A DNA stretch of 64,000 bases from Beverwykella pulmonaria. Its lineage: Eukaryota; Ascomycota; Dothideomycetes; Pleosporales; Melanommataceae. The notes beneath the pieces were generated by a model. That model had not been told where the DNA came from. It did not search any database and was given only the letters and a program-made list of their open reading frames with translations. This document shows, in pieces, positions 2,244-16,626 of the stretch (position 1 is its first letter; every line of letters begins with the position of its first letter). The stretch lies in contig BCHH01000010.1 of the NCBI GenBank assembly GCA_001599595.1, positions 1,557,035 to 1,621,034 on the forward strand, written 5' to 3'. Position numbers and translations under genes: made by a program.

Positions 2244-3705
2244 GATGTTTTGATGAATAGAAAGCAACTAGTGGCCGATGCAAAGTACTTGTACGTTTTA
2301 ACCTTCCCGATTTGGGCATATGGTGCCGATCTTTCCAACTGAGCCACTGAAAGCCCGAGAAGGGAAGATCCTAGAATTACTCTTGCCGCAATATAATTTC
2401 GATGACCGATGACGTGAGACGTGACTTTGCGACACAGCTGGCTCTTTTTTCACCTCGTGCAGCTCAGCAGGCGGCACAGCAGGTGGGACAACAGATTGCT
2501 ATTGGATGAATTTTTCCATGCACAACAAGAACCCCTTTCACTCACCTTCGATAGCTTACCAGAATTTAGCTTACCTGTCAAACCAAACCCCACAGCGGAC
2601 ACGAGTTAACGAAAAACTCGCGACGTCCGCCATCGTAAATTCCTCAAGCTTGAACGACTTTCACCTAGGTTTCACACAAGCAAGCCAAGGAGAACTGGAT
2701 CGTTTGGACTTTAATTTCCATCATTGTCTGGATGTTCTTTCCACCTCTCCGAATGGCTTGTGACCGACGTGTCATAGCCTCCATAAGCTGGCAAGCACCT
2801 CATCATACCCACTCAAGCTCAAGCAACTTACAAAAGCCATGGCCTAGTCCAAGAGTAAGGAAATAGCTTAACACAGGGGACGAGGAATGTTTGGAGTGCG
2901 AGCCACCATACATCTTGACTATGGACTCTACAGAATCAATTAGCTAGGAGTTTAACTAGATTACCAAGGTAACTCGCGGCGAATAGAAAGTCGGAAACTG
3001 GGCGGTCTTCGCAATTTCGAAGCTTTCCCGCCACACAGTTAATTTTCGGTAGCGATACAATAATATTAGCTTCTCCCAACGGCAATGTCCTCTGGAATTG
3101 TGAACCTAAAATCGCTGAGCAGCTTTATTCGTCACCTACCGTTCTAGTTCCAGTAAGCACCTTGAAATGGTTGGACATTTGGGGACCTACTATTTCAACT
3201 ACAGAGGGCCAAGAATGGATAATTCACCGAAAAGTTATCACGCAAAGACTGAATCCCTAGAAGGCTTCAAGCCCGAAAGCAGCCCCATCCAATATGACCT
3301 CTTCGTGACGGATCTTGCATGAGGGTCTTCGCTCCCGTCCCACACAAAGTAGAGGTAGAAGCAGACGTGTAAGTCCGGAAGATACAGCATGGCTTTGCAA
3401 GGTTGTCTTAGTTCTTTTGGTCTCATCAATTTCTCGCGGTAGTATGCCTTTGTAAAATTATTTCAGTTGCAACAAGCGTGAGACTAAGAGCGCTTGGTAT
3501 TTGATCTCAGGAGAGAAGGCCCAGTGTTCAATATCTTCCACCGGTGTTGTAGATTGCGGCACGGCTCGTTACCCTACATATATTATGAGGAGGTGACACG
3601 ACTCCGAGGCACCAGCAAAGAGAAACATCTGCCTTTTCTTTTCTTTCCATTCTACAACTCCCCCTACTCAACGACACTTAAAAAATCCAATACTGGAATT
3701 TAACG
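2244..3705. other. intergenic, nothing recognised
   Basis: Divergent spacer between the broken methyltransferase and the Rossmann-fold gene. It should hold both promoters. Short open frames (for example 2506-2763 on the plus strand) have no recognisable family and no supporting splice structure. Confidence 0.5.
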
Positions 3706-4565
3706 ATGAAGCTAATCGTTGCGGGCGCCACCGGCTTTGTTGGCACTGAGGTTATCCGCCTGGCTCTTCGTAACACGGCCATCACCTCTATTGTCGCAAT
3801 TACTCGTCGAGACGTCCAAATACCTGAGGATACAGGATCTGATGCAGATACATCCAAACTGAAGTCCATTATCGTTGAAGACTGGGCAAACACCTACGCT
3901 GAGTCTGTAAACGAACACATCAAAGGCGCTGATGCCTGCATCTGGTATGTGAGTTCATCAGCCTAGACATGAATCATACCAATCTCATCTGTCTTCCCAA
4001 TAGGGCCTTAGCAGTTACACCAACTAAGTCCCAAGGCATGGACTTTACAGAGGTGACTAAAATCTGCACTGACTACACTATAAATGGTCTCCACACCATC
4101 GCCGCTCTGGCCAATAATCCGTTTCGCTTCGTTTACGTGTCTGGCGTCACGGTAGAACGCGACCAGACGAAATCTCTCTCATTCCTAGCTGACTACCGCC
4201 TCATGCGTGTGCGTTTCCCCTTTCTCTTCTTTGTAGCCAGCTCGATTGACTTATTAGTACAGGGCCGCATCGAGAATGCAATTCTAGATTTCGCAAACCA
4301 GCATGCCTCCGCCGTCCAAGTCACTGTCGCAAAGCCAGGTGGCATCGAGGGGCCTGGCCATCCGAAAAGTGCCGCATTAGCGGGACTTTTCAGTCAGTTC
4401 GCCGACACTCCTTGGATTCACGTATCAGAGCTCGCTGCTGCCTTGATTGACCAGTGTCTGCATGGCATCACCAAAGATCCCTTATGGGGCAAGGATCTGC
4501 AAGAGATTGGGTCTCGCATACTCCGCAAAGAATATTATGTAGGGAACGCGGCTGATGCAGTTTAA
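3706..4565 (+). CDS. NAD(P)-binding Rossmann-fold protein (NmrA/epimerase-like)
   Basis: Three exons, 3706-3944, 4004-4208 and 4263-4565, give 248 residues. The N-terminus MKLIVAGATGFVGTEVIRLAL is the GxxGxxG dinucleotide-binding beta-alpha-beta of short-chain atypical (NAD(P)H-binding) dehydrogenases. The second exon holds FRFVYVSGVTVERDQTK, the usual substrate-side segment with an S-G after a strand, and YRLMRGRIENAILDFA, where Y and the following helix take the place of the active-site region. The second intron is 54 nt, in phase and without stops, so read-through would add 18 residues; GTGCGT and GTACAG borders and family pattern favour splicing. The substrate is unknown. It is the last intact ordinary gene before the AT-rich repeat island. 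Confidence 0.8.
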
Positions 4566-5179: not shown

Positions 5180-6258
5180 AATATTCTACATAAGCACAAT
5201 CAAAGGTGGTGGAGTGGAACTCTCACATATGTGCCGTAATATTGCGCCAGGGATATACTGTAGCACTAATTGGTACAGCCTTTAGGGCCTACTTAGCGAA
5301 GAATTCGATGAGGTATATAATCTCCGCCAGTTCCGCAGGTCTCGATTCAAGAAGCTCCTTATAAGTCTCGTAGAAAGTTTGGAAGGTAGGTACGCCAAAA
5401 TTCTGGACAGCGCCACCATAAACGTTATGGATGGATTCGCACAAGTGTGATTTTCCGGTTCAATTGAAAAGAACTGTTGCGCGTTCACTGATGTCCACGG
5501 CATTATGTCGATATTAGAGCGCTTTGGTGATAATTGAAGAAGTGGTTGGAAATATCTCTCGCCCTCTGCTTGAGGTCCAATGTAGACTACATTAACAAAG
5601 ATAAATGACTGCTCAGAACACCCGCTGTCAACGAATCATAACAGATTTGTTCACTTTGAAAACTTACTCCACCCAACTCAACTACATGGGCTGCAAGCAG
5701 CACGAACGACAGCTTTGTCGGTAACTCTTTTTCAAACGTTTTGAAGAACTCTAGAATCGTCTGGCTGGCGTTGGGAGCAAACATAAAGTCCGCATTCAGC
5801 ATCTGCGGTCCCATTTCGTCGTAAACCGCATTCGTCGCCTCCAGGACAGTCCCAAAATTAAACCCCGCACTTCTCACAATCCAAAAGAGTTAAGCATTCC
5901 ACTGCTTCGACGACGTTACAATCTGTCCACCGTTATAGAGGCTCACGCCACCGCCGAGTGTGGCTCCAACCATGCCGACACCATTTTCTGACCCGATAGC
6001 TTCTCTCATATCGACACCTCGCATCCCTTCATAATTAAACGTTTGGTACTTATGAAGTTCTTTCCGCGCCTATGCAAGCGGGCCAAGGATATCTCTAAAC
6101 CGTACCGCGCCGCCAATTCTCAGTGTGTTCGCCTTAGCATCTACATTCACGCAATTGTAGTTCGACAGATCAAGTAAAATCCCATTCCGTAGATTCTTTA
6201 GAGTAATGAGGAATCCGTGTCCACCTCCAGTCGTTAGAAACAGTGTCCCTGAGTTCAT
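5180..6258 (-). pseudogene. FAD-linked (berberine-bridge-like) oxidoreductase, decayed
   Basis: Pieces of a PCMH-type FAD-binding oxidase lie in order on the minus strand. These are TGGGHGF and LRNGILLDLSNYN (FAD-binding start), ANTLRIGGAVRFRDILGPLA, GVGMVGATLGGGVSLYNG, LFWIVRSAGFNFGTVLEAT (cofactor cradle) and YIGPQAEGERYFQPLLQL. A BBE-type C-terminus follows, with AVPISATVYPWRNIT. The frame is interrupted by stops (after ILGPLA near 6070 and beside SKQWNA near 5890), by a deletion where about two dozen residues normally separate SKQWNA from the cradle, and by a frame change after NHTC near 5430. It is therefore not expected to give a full enzyme. Family members are often tailoring oxidases in fungal metabolism. 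Confidence 0.75.
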
Positions 6259-6369
6259 CTCGTATTAGATCTGTATGCAAATAGCGAGAATTAAATTCAT
6301 CCTGGATGAAGATTAGGAGGGAAGACATACAATCCTAGCCACATTGTTATCCATCACAGTATATCACGT

Positions 6370-6525
6370 AAATATCACGTGCACCATATGATCTTGGATA
6401 TCACATGCACTGTACGCTTGGTCACACGTCCTGATTAGTCATGGCTAGATATATATGCCCGTTGATCTCCATAGCTTCTGAATCAACTCAGTCCTCATTA
6501 TTATCTCGTCCATATAACGTGACCA
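6370..6525. repeat. dispersed repeat A, copy 1 (empty site)
   Basis: This segment, just upstream of the decayed oxidoreductase start, matches the two flanks of the DDE element at 11666-13069. Shared strings include ATATCACGTGCACCATATG, GTCACACGTCCTGATTA and CGTTGATCTCCATAGCTTCT. Copy 1 keeps about 28 bases (near 6391-6418) that copy 2 lacks, and has no transposon at TATATATGC|CCGTTG. Confidence 0.75.
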
Positions 6526-6934
6526 CAAACTACAACATTATCAGTAACGGATTTGACGGCCACTCTGTGACAGGTACTCCCCGCTCGCTCGCTTGGATTG
6601 TAACAAACCTATAGCTAGGTTCAAAATTTATTACTTGCAGTAGAAGATGTTGAACTGTATTAATTCTCTATTAATAGAGACCAGATCAATTATATACTAG
6701 GCAGGATGGCCTGTACATGTTTTAGATTGCAAATTAGCTTAAAAATCCAATAGAGCAGCAAAATATCTAGAGTAATGACAGCCTGACCCTGATCTGATTT
6801 GCCACTGACTGTGACGACCCCGTCACACTAACAACCCCAAAACATTCCTTTCAACAGTTTCAGACTTCTTTGCAATCTACCTCGCTCTTTTTTACTCCTT
6901 AGAGCTGACATCTTAGCGTTTCTAACTTAATATA

Positions 6935-7273
6935 TTAGCTATAGGTAACTTGCAAATAATCTAAACCATGAGTAGAAACCATACAATTATAGCAGTCACA
7001 TCGTAACCAAGCAGTAACTGCATCACAATAACCGCCACTAAAGCCACTATCTTTACAGTGACTTTCAAACTAAGTTAGTATAAATTTTTAAAGATTCAAA
7101 TAGACAAAGATAACTCAAGGAAAGGTAAAATCGGGAAGTTACCTGTCGCACTCATACTCATCTTGATCAAACGGCCCGTTACAACCAAACCCCGATGGTG
7201 TATCGGAGGTTGGCATGGAAAGGCTTGTCATACTGAGGGAAGATATGATAACGAGGATCGCCAAGGCCCGCAT
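6935..7273 (-). CDS. secreted plectasin-type defensin (CS-alpha/beta peptide)
   Basis: Two exons, 7273-7143 and 7061-6935, encode an 85-residue precursor. The intron (7142-7062, 81 nt) has a GTAAC donor, a perfect TACTAAC branch site at 7080-7074 and an AAAG acceptor. Residues 1-19 form a hydrophobic signal peptide (MRALAILVII...). The core starts GFGCNGPFDQDEYEC at residue 28. Cysteines fall at 31, 42, 46, 56, 65 and 67, giving C-x10-C-x3-C-x9-C-x8-C-x-C with the GGYC gamma-core and the terminal CDC. This is the cysteine-stabilised alpha-beta pattern; plectasin and related fungal defensins share the GFGC start and the ten-residue first loop. Such peptides kill Gram-positive bacteria by binding lipid II. 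No Lys-Arg maturation site precedes the core. Eighteen residues with a seventh cysteine (70) follow it; a GTATGG..CTATAG intron could remove most of them. No disruption is seen. It lies between a decayed oxidase and a Tc1-type element. Confidence 0.85.
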
Positions 7274-7371: not shown

Positions 7372-7379
7372 TTTATATA
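7372..7379 (-). promoter_or_regulatory. TATA box of the defensin gene
   Basis: TATATAAA on the minus strand ends about 99 bases before the defensin ATG at 7273, a usual distance for a fungal TATA-driven, inducible gene. The start context is CAACAATGC, with A at -3. Prediction only. Confidence 0.45.
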
Positions 7380-7713
7380 TAATTTCATCTAAGACTAACG
7401 GGCTTGTCACATGGAGTTCTTACGGTGGTCTGATTTCACATAGCAAGGAGCATTAGGGATGTAGCTAGTTGATCATGGTCAGACAGCGTATAAGCTGCTC
7501 TAACTTGACCCTTACAGAGGTTAATTAAGCATGATCACTAAAGCTGGGACAAAGAGTATATTAAGATTCATCGGAAGGACATCAATGTAACCTTAAACAA
7601 AATAAGATTTCCGCAGATCATAGCCTACCTATGCGCACTACCGCGTCTCTAACACATGTTGATAGCAAGTTTATAACATTCGTGGCAATAAACGTAAATA
7701 AGTATATTCTATA

Positions 7714-7850
7714 ACGTGTTTCACCATCGAGCGACTCACACTACCGAGCAGCTCACCCCAAAACACACCAAAATATCGGAATTTGGAAGCGAAACATCTC
7801 AACCACCACTCAATAATAAAATTTAAAATTCCAGATTTGGGCTTTCGCAA
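7714..7850. repeat. left long terminal inverted repeat of Tc1-type element
   Basis: It pairs with 9215-9347. The match is near-perfect over the outer 50 bases apart from the 17-bp insertion, and weaker inwards to the shared GATTTGGGCTTTCG / GATTTAGGTTTTCG. Confidence 0.8.
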
Positions 7851-8138
7851 ATGTATTCTATGTTATATACTGATTACAGAGATATATTAAGATTTGGGGC
7901 TAAAATAACCCCTACTTTGTGCTATCCGCAGACTTACATAATTTTTAGTCTCTTTGAAATTGATAGACTACAAATTATGTACAAGACACATCCACGAACG
8001 AGCTGCTAGCGGGTTCGGTGGCATGAGGTCTGTGCAGAGAAGGCTCTGAAATAAAATACCACACTTTATAAGCGGTTTGCTAGCAACGTGTTGTACCAAA
8101 TTCCACACATTCTACCACACCACCACACCACCACCACA

Positions 8139-9110
8139 ATGCCTAATACACCTAATCGTCGGCTTACATACAAAGAGCGCGTTCAAATATGGACCCTCAA
8201 AGATGACGGCCTACGACAGCAGGAGATTGCAGATAAACTAGGGATACCTCAGAGAACCATTTTCAATTGCCTTAATACTCCACAGACGCCGTTGAAACCT
8301 TGAGGTCGCCCTTCAACAATTACAACACCTCTTTGAATCCTACTTGTACGCCATGCCACTAAAACGCTGAACACAGGCGTAAGACCCGCGAAATTATTGC
8401 CCACGAGCTTGGTATTAAAGCCTGCCGCTGTACTCTTGTTAAAGCCTTTGAGAAAGAGTTATATCACCGCCGTAAGGCCACAGAGAAACCCTTCTTAACG
8501 ACAGAGCGCATGCACAATCGTCTAATGTGGGTGTGGGAGCATGTTGACTGGAGCGACGAGCAGTGGGATAACTGCGGCTGGGGAGACGAGATAGCTATGT
8601 ATCTAAGTCATGGCGAGATATACATTACAAGGCTGGCTGAAAAGAAGTACCTGCCTGAGTGCTGCGTCCCTAAGTTTAAGCAATTCTCATGTGGCATGGT
8701 AGGCCATGATATCTAATATTTAGAAAGGCCCTCTCATCCTTTTTTAGAAAGAGTGGCTCATTGTCATATATACTGGATTTCCAGAACGGTTATAGGCAGC
8801 TAGAAGACAAGGATCTCATCTACATGGGGGACAATGCCTCTATCCACACATCAAAGGCGACTGCCTCAGCTATTTAGGTTCTGGGCATCAATCGGGTCTG
8901 ATGGCTATCGAACTCACCTAACTTAAACCCTATTGAAAACGTGTGGAGATTGCTTAAATATTGAGTATCAAAGCATTTCCCATATACAGAGGCCGAATTG
9001 AGGCAATATATAATGATGGAGGAGTGGGAGAGAATTGACGTTGATGATTATACAAGTATATCAGGCCCATGAGAGAGCGGTGCTGGGCAGTAATAATGGC
9101 GGGTGGCGGA
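8139..9110 (+). pseudogene. Tc1/mariner transposase relic
   Basis: From the ATG at 8139, a helix-turn-helix reads LTYKERVQIWTLKDDGLRQQ EIADKLGIPQRT. A TGA follows after TPLKP, another stop soon after, then a frame change into RRKTREIIAHELGIKACR. The DDE catalytic pieces survive in separate frames: WSDE near 8545, DNASIHTSKATASA near 8830 and SPNLNPIENVWRLLK near 8920, followed by a stop. Several stops sit where CGA or CAG codons would be expected, which suits C-to-T change. The protein cannot be made, so the element is not autonomous. Confidence 0.85.
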
Positions 9111-11665: not shown

Positions 11666-13069
11666 CACGGGTGTGCAAGAATTGAGCGCGCAGGGGCCCC
11701 GCTTTCGATCAGAACTTCAAAACAAAGCCCTCATACCGACTTCAACACCACACATGGCTCCAACCACACCTAAAAAACGCGATAAAAAGACTGATCGACG
11801 CGAGCACGATACTATTAAACGTAATAGATTCTTCGACGCCTTTGATTCGAGGCGAAATGACCAAACAACTGGCGATATCGCACGACTTCCAGCTATCAAT
11901 ATACCTCCCTCTACCGCGCGCACCTGGATCGCAAAACGAGAAGCTATAGGCCAAGCTGCAGTTAGAAGAACCCGAAAAACCAGCTCTACCTTAGGCCGCA
12001 AGCCCTTAGTATCTGCGTCCAACCTCGCAAAAATAACAGACCAGAACGACCAAATCCACGAAATGGGCTACGCAGATCAGGTTAAAGAGCTAGGAATTTC
12101 AGCCACGCCACGTACTCTACAATACCACGCAAGCAAGGNAGGAGCTAGGCGGTTTAAGAAACCATTTCAGAAGAAGATCTCAGAAAAAAATCAAGGTCTT
12201 CGCTGCTCCTATGGCGCTTTACACCAAAAAGACACTATAACAGGCTTCTAGCAGCGTGTTTAGTTCACAGATGAGGCACACTTCCAGTCAATTAAGTTGA
12301 TGAAGGTTGCTGAATATGAGCTGCGTTACCCAGGGCAAGAAAGAGGGATAAATGAGGTAGAACTAGAGGGTTCTTTGGATGTTACTGTTCACGTTGCGGC
12401 TGGCGTCTCATACAACCACAAGGGTAGACTTATTTTTTATAAGGACCCTGTAGAGCCTTCAGAAAAGCAGCGCAAACAACCTAAGCCTAAGCAGATGAAA
12501 TACAAGCTTGATACTGCCTTTCAGGAACGTGTCAAAGTATATAAAGATACTAAGGCAAAGGAGGACGCAACACCAAAAGGCAACTGTATGACGCAGGTGT
12601 TTTACGCTCAAAAGATACTGCCAGAACACATTAAGCAGATCCAGGCTTTGGAAGCCCGTCACGGCGTCAAATACCACCTGCAGGAGGATGGTGATCCAAG
12701 CCACGGAATCAAGTCGCCAAACAGCGTGCCAGCACACCTAAAACGGGACGCAGGCCTGCTCATACTTGTCCATCCTCCTCAATCACCTGATCTTAACCCT
12801 ATTGAGGCATGCTGGAATATTATAAAGGGTAGATTAGCTGGTCGGAGGTGGTCAACTGTAGCTCAATTTAAGGCCGATATCCAGGCAGAATGGGATAAGA
12901 TAACACTCAAGGAAATTCGAGATCGTATTAGGGAGATGCCCCATCGCTGTAAATTAGTTCAGGAACAACCGCAGGTGCGAATCAAAAGCGCATTGTGGTA
13001 ATAATTTGAATATACTCGATTTTTGCGATTGGTGGTGGCCCCTGCGCGCTCAATTCTTGCACACCCGTG
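11666..13069 (+). mobile_element. DDE transposon, 1404 bp, nested in repeat A
   Basis: Perfect 33-bp terminal inverted repeats at 11666-11698 and 13037-13069 begin CACGGGTGTGCAAGAATTG. ATG flanks both ends (11663-11665, 13070-13072). The interrupted sequence can be read in the empty copy at 6370-6525, which fixes both borders. The element has one transposase gene with two in-frame amber codons and one ambiguous base at 12139. A 3-bp ATG duplication is unusual for a Tc1-like DDE element, which normally duplicates TA. Confidence 0.9.
11754..13001 (+). pseudogene. Tc1-like DDE_3 transposase with two amber codons
   Basis: From the ATG at 11754 a single frame of 416 codons runs to the TAA at 12999-13001, interrupted only by TAG at 12249-12251 and 12261-12263. 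The N-terminus is a basic helix-turn-helix region (KKRDKKTDRREHDTIKRNRF, then IPPSTARTWIAKRE). The catalytic triad is present: D in FTDEAHF directly after the second amber, D in YHLQEDGDPSHG, and E in PPQSPDLNPIEACWNIIKG. The last 60 residues are a typical helical tail. Both stops could come from CAG by one C-to-T change. Otherwise the gene looks young. Confidence 0.85.
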
Positions 13070-14312: not shown

Positions 14313-16626
14313 ATGGGCAAGCGCAAAGTTGGCGCTCTCGAAAAAGTCGATGCGGATCTTGCTAACCTGCAATACAAAGTTCGGCGCGATCCTGCTTCCT
14401 ACCGCGACGATTTCCAGAACCAGTACAACCAGTATGAGACTTTTCGCGAGCTGTTCTTGCAGAACCCCAGTACAACTGATGATGGCGGGATCGTTTCGCT
14501 GAGAGATTTGATTGACTTCATATCGCATGTTGCCAATTGCTATCCCGACTTGACTGCCAAATTTCCGGACGATTTGATCCAGATAATAAGTCTTCACCAT
14601 GAAGTTTTGGAATCTGAGCTTAGGGACAAGATTGTGGGGAGTTTAGTGCTGTTACGGAACAAAGACGTCATTGACTCTTCAACGTATGATTATAGACACA
14701 GTTTAAGAAACACTTGTAAATTAACCATGACGTAGACTTTTGAACACCCTTTTCCCAATCCTAGTCTCCACGCCCAGCAAATCCCTCCGCGCTCTCCTCT
14801 TCAGCAAGATCCTCTCCGACCTCCGAGCTTCGAACGTAAAAGCCACGAACCACAAGCTCAATCGCACAATTCAGACCGTACTCTATAACCTGCTTACCTC
14901 GGATCGCGCATCGCCGAAAGGAATATGGGCTGTCAAAATCACCCGCGAGCTCTGGAAGCGGCAGATATGGACAGACTCCAAAGCTGTAGAGATCATGAAA
15001 GAGGCTAGCCTGGCAGATAACGAGAAAGTCATAACCGGCGGAGTGAGGTTCTTCCTCGGCGGAGATAAGGAGCGGGAAGAGATGGCGGACGACACCGATG
15101 ATGACGAAAATATAGACATTGGCAAGTTAAGGCATCAGGCGGAAATCAACAAGAAGACGAAAAAGAAGGACCGAGAGCTGAAGAGGGCGGCAGCTGCAGT
15201 CAAAAAGAAGGAGAAGAAGAAGAACGCGCCGCATCCCCTTAACTTCTCTGCGCTCCATCTCCTCCACGATCCACAGGGTTTCGCAGAATCTTTGTTCTCA
15301 AAACATGTCCAAAATTCCAAGTCTAAGCTTGCTCTAGAGTCGAAAATTCTCGTCCTGCAACTCGTCTCTCGACTAGTTGGCCTACACAAACTTACTGTTA
15401 TCACGCTCTACTCATACTTCTTAAAGTACCTTACTCCACGGCAAGCCTCTGTCACCTCATTCCTCGCCTGTCTCGCACAAGCAACACACAATCTAGTTCC
15501 TCCAGATGTTCTCGAGCCCCTCATTCAGAAGATCGCGAATGAGTTCGTGTCAGAAGCTGCTGCATCCGAAGTAGCAGCTGCTGGACTGAACGCCATCCGG
15601 GAAATATGCGTTCGACAGCCACTCGCAATGAACGACACGCTGCTCCAAGATCTAGTCATGTACCGCAAGAGCAAAGACAAGGGAACCATGATGGCCGCAA
15701 AGGGCTTGCTAAGTCTGTACAGAGAAGTCGGCGCCGAGCTGCTCAAAAAGCGCGATCGAGGCAAAGACGCAGCCATGGGTCTACGCTCCGGCGAGATGAA
15801 AGAGCGGCGCTTTGGCGAAGAAGAGGCTGGCGAGATCGAAGGCATCGAGCTCCTCGAAAAGCTCAAAGAAGAAGAACGTCGCAAGAAGCGCGAAGAGCTA
15901 GGTTTACCCCCCGACCTCGGCACCGACGAGGAAGAAGAAGACGAGGGCGACAACTGGAAAAATTGGGACGTAGAATCCGACAGCAGCGACGACTCAGAGG
16001 GCTGGATTAATGTCGAAAGCGACGGCGAAGATATCAACATTAGTGACAGCGACGACGATGAGAAACCACCCACGAAGAAAGCCCGCCTCAGCTCCGTGCC
16101 CATCAACACTGACGGCGAAAAGGAGAACTCGACCACCCCATCGACCAAATCCGCCGAGCCTGAAGCAAAAAAGATCTCAAAACTCCTCACACACCACATC
16201 CTCACCCCCGCCGACCTCAAACAGCTGCAAACGCTCAAACTGCAGTCCTCCGTCACATCCTCGCTCTCCTCGTTCAAAAAGCGCCAAGCGCTTGCCGCCA
16301 AACACGCCGACGAGGGAGTCTCAAAAGAAGATATCGAAGCTCCCGCCAAACTCGGCAAAAAAATGACACGAGAAGAGAAAATCGCCGGTGCAAAGGGTGA
16401 TCGCGAGGAGCATCATAAGAGCACGACTGCGATTCGCAAAGAGAAGAAGGTAGCGGAGGGCAAGAGCACAACGAACAAGGAGAAGGCGCGGAAGAAGAAC
16501 TTTTTGATGACGCTAGGCAAGGCGAAGGGAAAGCAGAAGAGGAGTTTGGTGGATGTAAGGAGGACGCTCAAGGGGCATATTGAGAGGAGTAAACGGGGCG
16601 GGAAGAGAGGGAATAAGGGGATGTAG
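14313..16626 (+). CDS. SDA1: SDA1 family protein, 60S ribosome biogenesis and export
   Basis: Exons 14313-14683 and 14736-16626 (52-nt intron, GTATGA..CGTAG) give 753 residues, close to the yeast protein. The N-terminal third matches the SDA1/NUC130 region: LQYKVRRDPASYRDDFQNQY, the ISLHHEVLESELRDKIVGSL helix pair, ALLFSKILSDLR and NRTIQTVLYNLL. The middle holds FSKHVQNSKSKLALESKILV and the TPRQASVTSFLACLAQATH helices. Then come an acidic segment (TDEEEEDEGD, SDSSDDSEGW) and a Lys/Arg-rich tail ending KRGGKRGNKG, usual for nucleolar assembly factors. Sda1 is needed for late nuclear 60S maturation, export and passage through G1. There are no anomalies. Confidence 0.95.

Follow-up and report, generated by a model that had tools for sequence, protein, structure and literature searches.

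A series of lipid II-binding antibiotics started from plectasin, and natural sequences in which its N-loop is kept and the remainder is changed therefore show what the fold and the function need. Fungal defensin-like peptides are already known from many ascomycetes, and the locus described here is an unusual mixture of features within this known class. The fDEF1 family was described with a propeptide between the leader and the mature part, and its member Pyrelysin, reported from Dothideomycetes (Pyrenochaeta lycopersici) and known here by description only, has 55 residues and a net charge of +5.4 (PMC4165938). According to the work on Pyronema, the plectasin genes of this fungus have one intron, in phase 2, and transfer of defensins from insects to fungi was proposed there as a speculation (PMC3778014).

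In the window, i.e., the whole stretch of 64,000 nt that was analyzed, sequence reading revealed a defensin gene on the minus strand, composed of a 131-nt exon 1, an 81-nt intron and a 127-nt exon 2, with a coding sequence of 258 nt. The spliced frame comprises 85 codons and a stop, with ATG at 7273 and TAA at 6935. The first-pass annotation had proposed such a split gene, with exons at 7273–7143 and 7061–6935 and an intron at 7142–7062, and its coordinates, frame, splice sites and phase were all reproduced. Exon 1 (7143..7273, minus strand) carries the start codon, a putative hydrophobic leader (approximately 7273–7217, minus strand; 9-residue hydropathy of up to 3.1, with a conjectural cleavage position), a short spacer of about eight residues between the leader and GFGC (approximately 7216–7193, minus strand), and GFGC with the N-loop, ending after two bases of the Ser44 codon. 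Intron 1 (7062..7142, minus strand; 81 nt, GTAACT...AAG) lies within the Ser44 codon in phase 2, the same phase as that given for the Pyronema plectasins in PMC3778014, and had the top profile score of the splice models. In the same reading, a branch-site-like TACTAAC (7074..7080, minus strand) places the branch A 13 nt ahead of the intron end, and exon 2 (6935..7061, minus strand) encodes the remaining defensin domain from C46 to C67, followed by C70, a 15-residue tail and TAA. The GC content was 44% in the coding sequence and 27% in intron 1. A TATA-like sequence, TATATATAAA (7372..7381, minus strand), about 100 nt upstream of the start codon, is a candidate promoter element only.

The precursor was read as a hydrophobic leader, the spacer of about eight residues, GFGCNGPFDQDEYECDSHCKDSGFSGGYCDAVTAWLRCDC, and then YNC with the tail. 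The cysteine framework comprises C31, C42, C46, C56, C65 and C67 with the spacing C-x10-C-x3-C-x9-C-x8-C-x-C; this spacing, the GFGCNG start and GGYC are present exactly as they had been annotated. The splice signals were compared with those of the same genome in a heuristic survey of 250 kb, which includes false positives and for which 40 donor hexamers were listed. The commonest branch-to-acceptor distances there were 9–11 nt (28 of 67 intron-like places). The exon side of the intron 1 donor, CAG, is good, and the donor itself, GTAACT, was outside the 40 listed hexamers and is thus untypical at the fifth base. An alternative acceptor at 7070 was rejected: this first AG past the branch site is an unlikely acceptor because a mere 5 nt separate it from the branch A, and its best score was 32.9 bits, compared with 47.4 bits for the model above.

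The spliced protein matched plectasin 1zfu (E-value = 5.2e-8, 36.2 bits) and oyster defensin 2b68 (E-value = 6.4e-8, 35.9 bits) in a phmmer search against PDB. A profile search of the spliced protein had been suggested in the first-pass annotation; the Pfam family Defensin_2 (PF01097) was passed narrowly, with 20.8 bits against a cut-off of 20.4 (a margin of 0.4), whereas exon 2 alone reached 17.0 bits in the genome search, below the cut-off. None of the Pfam families Defensin, Toxin_3, Defensin_like and Gamma-thionin exceeded its cut-off with the spliced protein; Gamma-thionin had the lowest E-value of the Pfam search and yet remained below its cut-off (21.9 bits, cut-off 25.1). A scorpion-toxin-like identity was rejected (Toxin_3, 14.0 bits, cut-off 21.5), the match reflecting the common fold only. 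The window was also scanned on both strands for two-exon models with GT-AG introns of 45–120 nt and at least five Cys (n = 2909), with a profile built from 11 relatives from which this defensin was left out. All 39 profile matches (E-value up to 1) were at this locus, and the splice chosen in the first-pass annotation was the top model (47.4 bits). In 15 dinucleotide-shuffled windows with 1629–2350 models each, the best scores were 7.5–13.0 bits; the HMMER filters were on in the window scan and off in the shuffle control, which is therefore the more lenient of the two. It could be argued that open frames and splice sites resembling a defensin were assembled by chance, since a short, split gene is concerned whose splice sites were chosen by eye; against the PDB E-values near 1e-7 to 1e-8 and the score of 47.4 bits compared with at most 13.0 bits in all 15 shuffled windows, such an assembly has a negligible probability and is refuted in practice. 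The earlier identification of an intron-split CS-alpha/beta-type defensin is thereby borne out by the PDB, PF01097 and scan scores together, and we regard a real, defensin-like gene at this locus as practically certain.

In the genome searched (45.6 Mb, 31 contigs), the defensin turned up in one copy: the DNA search returned this locus only, and the protein search its two exons only. PF01097 gave four matches below the cut-off in the genome, one of which was this gene; the other three, on contig C6, were discarded, as they had no defensin look. A homolog search with the single defensin sequence returned no candidate, though P0020, a JGI metagenome fragment, has more than three 5-residue words in common with it, whereas a profile search from a three-sequence alignment recovered 23 relatives among 24 candidates (E-value up to 0.1). 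Three features, GFGC, HC and CxC, were invariant in the alignment, and all of them are kept in this defensin. In viral contigs, 29 stretches fitted a pattern and none was confirmed, while the exact pattern fitted none; in GTDB contigs, 16 stretches fitted and none was confirmed. No Rfam match was found over 5–9 kb of the window at the gathering score, and a genome search for 5.8S rRNA, in which 39 of 1416 candidates were scored, did not recover it. Among the papers listed in literature searches there was no report of this gene, which does not prove that none exists; the one paper listed for Melanomma and defensins deals with an anti-yeast protein.

The 3′ end can be read in two ways. A possible second intron (6922..6984, minus strand; 63 nt, GTATGG...CTAAT...TAG) would, if spliced, give a protein of 69 residues with six mature Cys and the end ...CDCYN, near the plectasin end ...CKCY. 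This reading is supported by the GTATGG donor, the CTAAT branch site and the TAG acceptor 13 nt after it, with a join that makes a stop right after CDCYN, as well as by the tail of the one-intron protein, which is without relatives among the retrieved sequences, of which 10 of 16 end in CKCY. The exon side of this donor (AATT) is poor, however, GTATGG was outside the 40 donor hexamers listed in the genome survey, and the acceptor is ambiguous because an earlier AG, in AAG, lies only 9 nt past the branch A. An intron within a stop codon is unusual. It should also be noted that C70, a seventh Cys that the first-pass annotation had not mentioned, stands in the alignment at the position of the last Cys of oyster defensin. 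In the one-intron model, in which C70 is followed in frame by the 15-residue tail, this Cys is odd, having no oyster partner Cys; since the partner position is occupied by Phe51, C70 would be left as a free thiol or would join two molecules into a dimer. The one-intron model has an edge over the two-intron model; splicing of the second intron has a real if lesser chance and is compatible with the best explanation of the locus, the two not being exclusive.

The gene is embedded in AT-rich sequence (GC 0.38 at 7–8 kb of the window). The transposon-rich surroundings noted earlier are evident, as transposase remnants and a dispersed repeat lie near the gene. The repeat, of about 190 bp, is located at 6353–6544 and, with 40 of 179 candidates scored, has at least 39 additional matches elsewhere in the genome, all but one of which (38) cover almost its whole length. 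Twelve aligned copies have sharp ends, TA at many of these ends, and weak terminal inverted repeats, and resemble a small non-autonomous DNA transposon. Upstream of the gene, Tc3-type helix-turn-helix transposase pieces (8055–8713) remained just below the cut-offs, and a DDE_3 transposase frame of 245 aa (12264–12998) exceeded its cut-off with 37.4 bits. The sequence at 7743–7981, also upstream, shares 80% identity with a site on contig C5 that is overlapped by a second, inverted match, and is perhaps a small palindromic element. Downstream, a sub-threshold FAD_binding_4 piece was found at 6070–6258 (23.9 bits, cut-off 26.4; two weak PDB matches, one with E-value = 0.0015), and searches with the neighboring frames 5285–5635 and 5590–5889 returned nothing convincing. 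Two adjoining open frames occupy 3682–4562; NAD(P)-binding matches of the first remained below threshold, and the second, of 210 aa, had no match; they are possibly an intact two-exon gene. The first-pass statement that everything around the defensin is decayed was too strong, given the 210-aa open frame at 3933–4562 and the SDA1 gene that starts at 14313. SDA1 is 94–100% identical to a Melanomma protein over its two exons; for one SDA1 exon, the identity was 94% with Melanomma pulvis-pyrius and 83% with Lindgomyces (best 120 of 3071 matches), which places the host among the Pleosporales, close to Melanommataceae.

These surroundings bear on whether the gene is a recently silenced relic, i.e., one whose frame is still open but which has lost its expression or its use and is bound to decay like its neighbors. 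The AT-rich, transposon-bearing environment with FAD-oxidoreductase and transposase fragments and the dispersed repeat would suit such a relic, and the tail without relatives could be read-through after the loss of an old stop. The thresholds used for RIP in Neurospora are 0.89 and 1.03. Over the gene (6941–7273, intron included), the dinucleotide ratios were 1.00 for TA/AT and 1.02 for (CA+TG)/(AC+GT), on the RIP side of both thresholds, which calls for caution on intactness, although the stretch is very short. On the other side, no damage is seen in the start, either exon, the splice signals or any of the six framework Cys, so far as intactness can be judged from open frames and splice signals, and we consider a silenced relic unlikely.

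With regard to function, the gene of this Pleosporales fungus near Melanommataceae, found in one copy, would encode a CS-alpha/beta defensin that is secreted and belongs to the ancient invertebrate type. The leader would direct secretion of the peptide, in which, by homology with plectasin, three disulfides (C31-C56, C42-C65 and C46-C67) are predicted to hold one helix on a two-strand sheet, a fold suggested by the matches to 1zfu and 2b68. The lack of a Lys-Arg processing site, through which the GFGC end would be freed, counts against this reading. Outside the cell, the peptide would act on Gram-positive competitors by capturing lipid II through the conserved GFGC end, His45, Lys47 and aromatic residues, while the acidic N-loop D-Q-D-E may bind divalent cations. 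PMC12284004 connects nine residues of plectasin with the binding of lipid II; in the alignment, F2, H18, K20, Y29 and Y40 are identical in this defensin, Y25 is replaced conservatively by Phe, and I22, K23 and K26 differ or are missing. PMC13139365 assigns plectasin a calcium-binding patch, D9-E10-D11-D12, which aligns with D-Q-D-E here, and argues against the older His18–glutamate salt bridge, making the part that His18 plays in lipid II binding a matter of dispute.

The net charge of the mature peptide (K+R−D−E) is −7 in the one-intron model or −6 in the two-intron model, compared with +1 for Pyronema plectasin P0004. This strong negative charge may mean calcium dependence, or a weaker or different activity. 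It favors a functional secreted defensin-like protein with a non-bactericidal role, namely stress or developmental signaling, or activity on fungi or small animals, and precedents are anisin1, a defensin-like protein tied to stress signaling and development, and a fungal defensin that does not act on bacteria, a failure ascribed to its lack of surface cationic residues (PMC4165938). However, according to PMC6181372, the anionic AfusinC kills Gram-positive bacteria and more than 60% of putative fungal defensins are anionic, so that charge alone does not exclude activity; moreover, of the nine residues linked to lipid II, six are either unchanged or conservatively replaced. A non-bactericidal role is therefore judged rather doubtful. 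Secretion of a peptide directed at Gram-positive bacteria, with capture of lipid II that perhaps depends on calcium, is on balance the probable reading as a whole, one drawn from sequence comparison.

Hand alignment of the mature peptide revealed different affinities of its two halves. In the N half (up to GGYC), the identity was 18/29 with Pyronema plectasin and with P0014, 16/29 with Trichophaea, 12/25 with oyster defensin and 17/23 with P0020. In the C half, 9 of 14 residues were identical to oyster P0001, compared with 6/12 for P0014 and 3/10 each for Pyronema and Trichophaea, the P0018 row being left out for this half; this half carries the mollusc motif CDAxTxWLRCxCxxC, residues of which are among the nine. 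Lys-Arg stands ahead of GFGC in all eight named fungal precursors retrieved and in P0014 and P0015, whereas it is absent from this defensin, oyster P0001, P0008, P0012, P0017, P0020 and P0021 (16 retrieved sequences counted; the mature-chain records P0009 and P0011 were left out). P0017 and P0021 are GFGC...CKCY proteins whose leaders resemble bacterial lipoprotein-type signals, and they are possibly bacterial members of the same class. The designation "plectasin-type" given in the first-pass annotation thus fits the N half (Pyronema, 18/29), and is not supported by the oyster-like C half (9/14 compared with 3/10) and the absent Lys-Arg.

In trees built on 43 columns, this defensin was placed, without firm support, with P0020 (91/87) and beside the oyster group (91/82; 92/85 without P0020), no tree having more than one firm branch, and its grouping with the seven named fungal rows was not rejected in the same trees (p-AU = 0.0596). 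The plectasin-family N-loop of 10 residues is present, with the acidic patch D-Q-D-E compared with D-E-D-D in plectasin. The propeptide described for fDEF1 is absent, only about eight residues without Lys-Arg standing in its place, and the eight Cys of mollusc defensins are not reached either, since at most seven are present and Phe51 occupies the partner position of the fourth disulfide. On these comparisons, the protein, in which the fDEF1 propeptide is absent, is filed as a putative CS-alpha/beta defensin of the ancient invertebrate type and outside the proven members of fDEF1. A more far-reaching reading is that this is not a diverged plectasin but a separate, undescribed hybrid lineage with a plectasin N-loop, a mollusc-type hairpin, no Lys-Arg and a dimer through the seventh Cys, anionic and calcium-dependent, held in common with the organism of P0020 and transferred from an invertebrate or another microeukaryote; we regard it as decidedly improbable. 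If the kinship with P0020 and mollusc-type sequences is borne out, it touches on the long-standing question of whether fungal and invertebrate defensins reflect a common ancestor or movement across kingdoms. The gene also exemplifies what escapes gene callers that work on one frame, and with it a class mostly described as cationic gains a strongly anionic member.

Compared with the known systems, this defensin has in common with plectasin and the Pyronema plectasins (fDEF1; P0004, P0010 and P0013; 1zfu) the GFGCNGP start, the 10-residue acidic N-loop, CxxxC, GGYC and CxCY. It differs from them in its C4-C5 loop (eight residues here, six there), in an alpha-beta loop that is one residue shorter, in the absence of the Lys-Arg that ends their propeptide, and in its charge (−7 or −6, compared with +1 in P0004). 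The unnamed ENA sequences P0014 and P0015 have the same 10-residue N-loop and 8-residue C4-C5 loop, whereas they possess Lys-Arg ahead of GFGC, a CKCY end and a presumed intron elsewhere; each contains an in-frame insert between the helix and GGYC that resembles an unspliced short intron. P0020 (72 aa, on a contig of 1722 bases) is like this defensin in its N-loop, GFGCNGPFDHDEYECNNHC (17/23), and in the lack of Lys-Arg; only its N half is known, as its frame enters a possible intron four residues ahead of its end, about five codons past the position of the intron described here. Oyster defensin (Cg-Def type; P0001–P0003; 2b68) differs in its N-loop of six residues compared with 10 here and in its eight Cys compared with at most seven, the partner of its last Cys being Phe51 in this protein, whereas the YCDAxTxWLRCxCxxC C half, the C4-C5 loop of eight residues, the equal alpha-beta loop, and GFGC straight after the leader without Lys-Arg are common to both.
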